Shown: positions 46,171-46,615 of the stretch, one piece after another
How positions within the stretch are numbered: position 1 is the first letter of the stretch
Layout of the letters: each line of letters begins with the position of its first letter
From: Roseofilum acuticapitatum BLCC-M154
GTDB lineage: Bacteria > Cyanobacteriota > Cyanobacteriia > Cyanobacteriales > Desertifilaceae
Assembly: GCF_030068475.1 (NCBI RefSeq)
Contig: NZ_JAQOSP010000039.1
Location: forward strand, 1 to 46,615
Length of the DNA stretch: 46,615 nt
Reading direction: 5' to 3'
Translations under genes and position numbers: made by a program
Notes under the pieces: generated by a model
What the model saw: the letters and a program-made list of their open reading frames with translations, nothing else
Told to the model about the DNA's origin: nothing
The model's database searches: none

Positions 46171-46296
46171 ATGGTAATAGTCGTTTATGATATTCCTGAC
46201 GATAAGCGGCGGACGAAACTGGCGAAGTTTCTTGAAGGTTATGGCCGGCGAGTGCAGTATTCTGTGTTTGAGTGTTTCATCGAAAAATGTGAGTAG
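46171..46296 (+). pseudogene. cas2: Cas2, 5' part (interrupted)
   Basis: The ATG frame encodes [20 protein letters not shown], then [17 protein letters not shown] (37 Cas2 residues ending at 46281), with the conserved Asp of the first strand (D7). After that EKCE and a stop come from inserted element sequence. The remaining 53 residues lie at 183-344 across the contig junction. The start is 66 bp after cas1 and just after a small palindrome, AGGTGTAACACCT. Confidence 0.88.
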
Positions 46297-46324
46297 AAAC
46301 CCCGTCCTTTTAGGACGGCTTTAT

Positions 46325-46615
46325 GTTAAGATAGGGGAGCCACATTGACCTTAAAGGTGGGTGAAACTCCCAGTGGTGGGACACTCAGTTAAAAGACGGC
46401 TAACCGAAATGGTTAGCTTGGTGGAAACACTCTGAACACAGCCCCCACAAGCAAAGACTTTGAGCGAGTGAAGCAAATACTTACAAGTAGCCTGAATGGT
46501 GGCAACACCGGACAGAGTAGTGGGAATTGGCATCCCCTATCGCGCAACACTGGTATTCGACTAAAAACGGTACTGGGAGTTGTGGTTCGAGCAATGTCCA
46601 ACGGTGGATATCTCC
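46325..46615 (+). ncRNA. Candidate structured RNA inside the element (omega/HEARO-like)
   Basis: The element interior forms several hairpins, for example GCTAACC (46399-46405) with GGTTAGC (46411-46417), GGG with CCC around TGAAACT (46359-46371), and GGGAATTGGCATCCC downstream. It continues to about position 150 after the junction. Dense paired segments, no ORF and IS200/IS605-type ends match guide RNAs of IscB/IsrB (HEARO) or TnpB elements. Which class it is cannot be told by eye. Confidence 0.45.
46475..46615. repeat. Terminal direct repeat (right copy)
   Basis: This sequence is identical to 1-141 and should be trimmed once when the molecule is circularised. It is internal to the cas2-splitting element. 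Confidence 0.93.

Follow-up and report, generated by a model that had tools for sequence, protein, structure and literature searches.

A short IS200/IS605-type element with a structured RNA related to TnpB guide RNAs interrupts cas2 in a cyanobacterial type III-B CRISPR locus

What has inserted into the cas2 gene of this CRISPR locus, and what would the RNA that the insert appears to carry be for? The window, meaning the whole 46,615-nt stretch of DNA analysed here, is contig C39 of the 154-contig, 5.22-Mb draft assembly of Roseofilum acuticapitatum BLCC-M154. The initial annotation proposed that cas2 is split by a non-autonomous IS200/IS605-like element carrying an omega-like RNA, whose guide could direct a trans-acting TnpB/IscB-type nuclease to the uninterrupted gene. 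From comparative sequence analysis, we consider it likely that the insert is a non-autonomous IS200/IS605-type element with an omega-RNA that acts in trans, and that the guide of this copy is cas2 sequence.

Interruption of cas2 at a TCAT site

The two parts of cas2 lie at opposite ends of the window (Table 1). Cas2 residues 1-37 had been assigned to 46171-46281 and the last 53 to a stretch ending at 344, and these positions hold. The breakpoint is best placed one base earlier than first stated: base 46280 is the last of the target TTTCAT, and the element starts directly after it, at 46281. The insert, described as about 375 bp with hairpin ends, measures 375 bp (46281-46615 plus 142-181) and ends in TCAA. 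Its removal rejoins the flanks precisely, giving TTC ATC AGT TTG (F I S L) and a 90-residue Cas2. The claim that the insert has no ORF stands in part: it contains no known gene, but a 113-aa open frame (bases 3-344) runs from the right part of the element into the 3′ part of cas2.

Table 1. Coordinates of the features discussed, as positions in the window
Feature	Position	Strand	Basis or remark
Element interior, window bases 1-141	1..141	+	duplicate of 46475-46615 (overlap)
TnpB-type omega-RNA core, R2 match, 19.7 bits, filters off	8..94	+	same as bases 46482-46568
Element, right 40 bp, with right-end hairpin, ends GTGTCAA	142..181	+
cas2 3′ part with stop codon; first ~16 bases are the would-be guide	182..344	+
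CRISPR array, 25 exact 36-bp repeats and one degenerate, 3′ of cas2	680..2534	+
Type III-B genes Cas10/Cmr2, Cmr3, RAMPs, Cas_APE2256	4341..14703	+	family search
ParB and ParA, plasmid-type partition genes	22227..23805	-	family search
Reverse transcriptase (RVT_1) ORF	44009..45007	+	family search
Cas1 (PF01867), 5′ of cas2	45079..46101	+	family search
cas2 5′ part, codons 1-36 and two bases, ends in target TTTCAT	46171..46280	+
Element, left 335 bp; last 141 bases repeat window 1-141	46281..46615	+
Left-end hairpin CCGTCC-TTTT-AGGACGG	46302..46318	+	sequence; left end common to tnpB-coding elements
Putative -10-like box TAAGAT	46327..46332	+
Structured RNA, R1 positions 2-279, 273.6 bits	46347..46615	+	projected model end, about base 153

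The closest of the Cas1 loci compared, that of a relative (G327), holds an uninterrupted cas2 allele with TCAT at the matching position. Its empty site reads GAGTGTTTCAT followed directly by CAGCTTGG at the point of insertion, with no indel. The intact Cas2 of this relative is 87% identical to the rejoined protein, the two cas2 halves of the window are similarly close to it (83% and 79% nucleotide identity), and a similar CRISPR-repeat sequence lies downstream of its cas2. Across 30 Cas1 loci, one of which (L108) is the window itself, a Cas2 match over 88-90 residues lies within the 1.5-kb flank in 14, a shorter or more distant match is present in 7, and the flank has no Cas2 in 8.

Contig ends and plasmid-type genes

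Self-comparison of the window showed that bases 1-141 are identical to bases 46475-46615. Overlaps of exactly 141 bases also link C4 with C98, C16 with C98, and C96 with base 1 of the window, each inside further copies of the element. This length most likely equals the k-mer of the assembly, and C39 most likely ends at the element because the element is repeated in the genome. We infer that the two ends of C39 join, closing a circle across contig ends rather than within one contig, because this reunites two matching cas2 halves and the contig carries plasmid-type genes (ParA, ParB and Prim-Pol); the sequence equally permits a join of C96 to C39. These three genes are consistent with a plasmid. 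Partial matches to Prim-Pol occur on cyanobacterial plasmids; they cover <50% of the length at <60% identity in the ten listed of 64 records. We note that two TnpB fragments (L235 and L236) come from Roseofilum halophilum records named k141_..., the same number as the 141-base overlap.

A multicopy non-autonomous element

The assignment to a non-autonomous IS200/IS605-like element was borne out by a fixed TCAT target, subterminal hairpins and an interior that holds no transposase or nuclease gene. Insertion is 3′ of the fixed tetranucleotide without target duplication, and the subterminal hairpins are common to the element and its coding relatives. The genome contains two complete copies (C86 and C101) as well as four left and four right halves, and TCAT precedes all six left ends seen. 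Three left ends associated with coding sequence, two followed by a tnpB-like start (C67 and C95) and one by a complete TnpB (C91), also follow TCAT and have about 93% of their first 42-43 bases in common with the element. The putative -10-like box reads TATAAT at the genome's other five left ends and is weaker in the cas2 copy (TAAGAT). Neither a DNA search of plasmid sequences for the element interior nor a search of viral contigs with one exact pattern gave a match. Another short element type of about 410 bp, with a different interior, lies at a TTAC site (L014, G000:C50:23584-24011); its right-end stretch resembles that of C109 (L195), and it possibly represents a second orphan RNA family.

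In 17 of the 30 loci of relatives both ends were recognised and the flanks could be joined, with some orthologues among the loci (L079-L081, L083-L084); the ends were not recognised in the other 13. Element length at the 17 is 337-424 bp, which is too short for a nuclease gene. At 8 of these sites no frame of more than 82 codons spans the insertion, at 8 the only such frame starts or stops no more than 60 bases from the insertion, and at one (L082) the frame reaches 141 bases beyond it. No preference for cas genes was seen, and this distribution speaks against a role directed at CRISPR: relatives insert outside or at the edge of long frames at 16 of 17 sites, and the mid-gene insertion in cas2 therefore looks like a chance hit.

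A conserved structured RNA inside the element

We built a covariance model (R1) from six sequences of the element interior. By DNA similarity alone, the interior was detected in five genomes other than the host's in a set of 388; in one of the five, the match spans just 60 bases. With R1, we detected matches at E ≤1e-4 in at least 42 of the 291 genomes of the host's order, its own included, at no fewer than 100 places. Across the host's phylum, at least 9 of 386 genomes matched at E ≤1e-5, all nine in the host's order. Few candidates were scored per genome, so these genome counts are lower bounds. Five congeneric genomes had no match at E 1e-4, and 25 loci of congeneric elements with the same left end gave one match at E ≤5. 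This weak match (L052 in G008; 14.6 bits, E 0.0012) belongs to a short element whose site is TTAC.

We assessed the structure by covariation in an alignment (A2) of 28 sequences, which comprises 26 of 30 R1 loci together with L004 and L070; three near duplicates (L080, L084 and L087) and L105 were left out. Standard pairs occupy 89.2% of the pair cells in A2, compared with 37-45% when the structure is slid along the alignment. Double changes occur in 50 of 71 pairs compared with 33.7 in shuffles, and none of 500 shuffles was as high on any of five measures. Although A2 was fitted to the R1 model, which favours structure, the gaps to the controls are large. RNAalifold, run unaided, kept 44 pairs, 35 of them with double changes. 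The stems read from the single sequence in the initial annotation are thus beyond chance by the shuffling and covariation tests, and the interior covaries across relatives as a structured RNA. G-U pairs outnumber C-A pairs 303 to 32, an excess that identifies the left-to-right strand as the RNA strand.

The RNA recurs with the same flanking signals. For 61 loci with non-duplicate and sufficiently long upstream flanks, drawn from 70 of the 100 R1 places, the left-end window contains TCAT in 40 (control window, 14), GTCAA follows no more than 75 nt from the 3′ end of the RNA in 50 (control, 10), and a -10-like box is present in 28 (controls, 2-8). Stop-to-stop frames of ≥70 codons overlap the RNA in many loci and, by eye, are not shared genes. 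The only recognised cargo of the element is an RNA gene, which probably has a promoter of its own. In one genus (L088, L089, L090 and L092), the RNA occupies a common locus where no transposon ends were recognised and is a candidate domesticated RNA; the upstream flank there is as conserved as the RNA and gives no sign of stronger selection on the RNA.

The 3′ half resembles a TnpB guide-RNA core

Rfam 15 contains no model that matches the RNA. The HEARO (RF02033) model, which represents the IscB type, matched three IscB loci and was silent on the RNA, and this type was rejected. Searched at the gathering score, Rfam was also silent on the TnpB 3′ regions of this genome (six sources), so its silence is no argument against the TnpB type. 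Of the proposed TnpB/IscB-type identity, the TnpB part is supported by core homology seen with R1 and with a second model, R2, and the HEARO/IscB part is not.

The first lead came from an element on C123 that holds both TnpA and TnpB (L028), where R1 with filters off aligns to the tnpB 3′ end just before the right-end hairpin. This match (6.9 bits, E 0.18) is second of 33, behind a 21-nt hairpin in L023. With default filters, R1 found the interior in none of 20 resident TnpB, TnpA and left-end loci, L028 included. We collected 40 loci of TnpB relatives and searched R1 against 35 of them, leaving out five that are non-cyanobacterial. Seven matches were obtained at E ≤10, five of them at tnpB 3′ ends (L199, L204, L206, L224 and L236) and two away from tnpB (L208 and L210, the latter the strongest of all). 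The L210 match (L210:5028-5132; 16.7 bits, E 0.00077) is on the strand opposite to tnpB and is possibly an extra omega-RNA-like copy. R1 with filters turned off also placed the identical tnpB 3′ ends on C12 and C9 of the host genome at the top (8.6 bits, E 0.026).

For the reverse comparison, R2 was built from the tnpB 3′ ends of 18 of the 40 loci (18 of 19 tried). These sequences were trimmed at an AAAGUA-type motif after the likeness had been noticed, so that R2 is not blind and not fully independent. Searched against 28 orphan-RNA loci, it gave 22 matches, 21 of which lie in the RNA on the right strand (best, 48.2 bits). The 21 positive loci of 28 amount to 20 of 27 distinct ones, since L071 and L086 are one place; seven of the 28 had no match at E ≤10. 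In 19 further sources, the sole match was another copy of the RNA (L003). Default filters missed three RNA-bearing loci of this genome (L001, L002 and L008). With filters off, these and L007 were found at 19.7 bits (L001 and L008 are the same bases), the RNA copies at C39, C96 and C98 being recovered. The same search scored the two identical tnpB 3′ ends (C12 and C9) at 31.7 bits and other TnpB types at ≤7.9 bits.

The core held in common consists of AAGUA, a hairpin GAAUGG...CCGGAC, UAG, and GGC..UUGGCA..GCC; AAGAAUCC, the right-end hairpin and GUGUCAA follow it. The 3′ half of the RNA thus appears homologous, in both model directions (weakly so with R1), to the omega-RNA core of one mainly cyanobacterial TnpB clade. 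A scaffold that ends at the right end with its guide in the 3′ flank is an omega-RNA trait that the RNA has by position only. No counterpart of its long 5′ domain is seen in TnpB omega-RNAs.

Resident TnpB, TnpA and IscB genes

Relatives of tnpA, tnpB and iscB in the host genome had been named as candidate partners. The first two are present, and no IscB match was obtained. IscB (PF14239) occurs in 166 of the 291 genomes of the order. By hand count, with genome size and element load uncontrolled, it is found in 34 of 42 RNA-positive genomes and in 132 of 249 others; the host genome and seven other RNA-positive genomes are without it.

Eight Y1 (TnpA) genes were matched in the host genome. The TnpB on C123 is intact (422 aa, NF040570) and adjoins a TnpA; by eye, this element is at an ACAC-like site and not at TCAT, so its TAM may not fit TCAT. 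A search with the C123 TnpB against solved structures returned none at E 0.01. tnpB at TCAT sites was seen solely as unlinked 5′ ends (C67 and C95) and 3′ ends (C12 and C9), which may be two copies of one TCAT tnpB. The two 5′ ends, 30 codons each, had no Pfam or NCBIfam match. Among the compared proteins, the 30-residue N-terminus from C67 is nearest to L223, a relative of the C123 TnpB; in plasmids, it was found in five records, none cyanobacterial.

We also searched 70 of the 100 RNA loci by tblastn with proteins from the resident TnpB, TnpA and IscB loci, a query set that included neighbouring ORFs and is therefore weak for TnpA. TnpB was found near four RNA loci (L159, L161, L187 and L188). 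A nuclease gene (tnpB or iscB) in cis was rejected as a general arrangement: of the four, only L161 has TnpB 5′ of the RNA and in the same orientation, and a right-end-like hairpin separates the two. At this locus (G526:C61), the tnpB just 5′ of the orphan-type RNA is either a chance neighbour or part of a composite.

Proposed mechanism and alternative explanations

PMC8612924 describes, for the ISDra2 TnpB, a right-end RNA with the last ~16 nt taken from the flank and the use of the target site as TAM. It also proposes that this TnpB cuts the empty donor site and that repair restores the element. We propose by analogy that a Y1 TnpA supplied in trans would move the element and that transcription from its putative promoter would run past the right end into the 3′ flank, which would thereby become the guide. 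A resident TnpB could take up this RNA, form a ribonucleoprotein and cut the TCAT-flanked empty site, and repair of the cut would copy the element back, a TnpB-style retention. A guide drawn from the cas2 flank on one side, as first suggested, would be on the right, 3′ side, with the RNA core ending at the right end. With a guide length of ~16 nt taken from ISDra2 (PMC8612924), the guide of the cas2 copy would be CAGTTTGGATGAGATG, presented together with TCAT, and its predicted target would be cas2 in the uninterrupted form. In the G327 allele, one of these 16 positions is different.

The element might instead be an ordinary PATE or MITE, with the RNA a functionless relic of the right end of an autonomous tnpB element and the ends alone serving movement. 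A non-autonomous element with the last tnpB bases and a right end is described in PMC7290912, and this genome too has short elements with tnpB-like tails (C50 and C131, by eye). Yet one would not expect a relic to retain so many double-change pairs over many genera (50 of 71), nor an upstream -10-like box above background, nor a large 5′ domain of a kind not seen in tnpB elements, and we consider this explanation unlikely. Conservation for a role other than guiding, e.g., partnership with TnpA or regulation of tnpB, would be consistent with a 5′ domain specific to the orphan RNA and with the persistence of the RNA in one genus without recognised transposon ends. Such a role is quite improbable in our assessment given that the 3′ half follows the order and strand of omega-RNA cores and that the RNA stops at the right end, as a guide RNA does.

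The sense orientation within cas2, combined with a structured RNA, also recalls an IStron-like insertion that splices itself out and restores the cas2 mRNA. Rfam gave no group I or group II intron match (a search with no positive control for those families), all but one of the relatives' joined sites fall beyond long frames or right at their margins, and the R1 model starts downstream of the left end rather than at it. We regard self-splicing as extremely improbable. The preferred explanation remains a TnpB-type guide RNA used in trans.

Relation to known systems

Compared with TnpB omega-RNAs (reRNAs) such as that of ISDra2, the RNA is alike in its 3′ end at the right end, the flank-derived position of the guide, the target-site sequence at the TAM position and the homologous core; it differs in having no tnpB in cis, an extra long 5′ domain and an upstream -10-like box. 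The guide of an IscB omega-RNA is 5′. HEARO/IscB omega-RNAs (RF02033) also lie within IS200/IS605-like ends, whereas the RNA described here has no Rfam match, ends at the right end and would have its guide 3′. PATEs (palindrome-associated transposable elements) have reportedly been discussed alongside TnpB and IscB work in Geobacillus. They resemble the element in their IS200/IS605 ends and in having no transposase or nuclease gene; here, a conserved full RNA is present and not merely a tnpB tail with a right end. PATEs are often moved by a trans-acting transposase, according to PMC7290912. The titles and abstract openings in our literature search named no orphan TnpB guide-RNA element of such a kind, and a term search of PMC12558985 was also without a match.

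An RNA family that has no Rfam 15 match, occurs on many short elements and appears to be built on a TnpB guide-RNA core points to non-coding transposons that use TnpB nucleases in trans. With its site in a gene for CRISPR adaptation, the cas2 copy offers a cheap and concrete test case for a mini-transposon that would hold its insertion through a borrowed nuclease. To those who study TnpB enzymes, a guide RNA with a long natural 5′ domain would also be of interest.

Consequences for the CRISPR locus

The locus is of type III-B, with reverse transcriptase, Cas1 and Cmr genes and an array. The cas2 case is probably a single consequential insertion in which the choice of cas2 was accidental, and the likely side effect is loss of Cas2 from this locus. 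Two more cas2 genes are present elsewhere in the genome, so adaptation need not be lost everywhere. A broader interpretation would be a class of guide-only transposons, widespread among cyanobacteria, that parasitise resident TnpB through a trans omega-RNA with a new 5′ domain, the guide of the cas2 copy converting uninterrupted alleles in a homing-like knockout of adaptation. We offer this as a tentative extension that is, on balance, doubtful.

A search for Cas1 relatives in the wider collection of genome contigs yielded none that were confirmed. The RT and Cas1 genes (44009-46101) are separate ORFs with an A-run near 44961; the Cas1 frame is about 370-400 aa in close relatives, and a frame of about 700 aa is found in others. 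Beside these two genes, a 456-aa protein with a Csx3 match is encoded on the minus strand (42544-43911).
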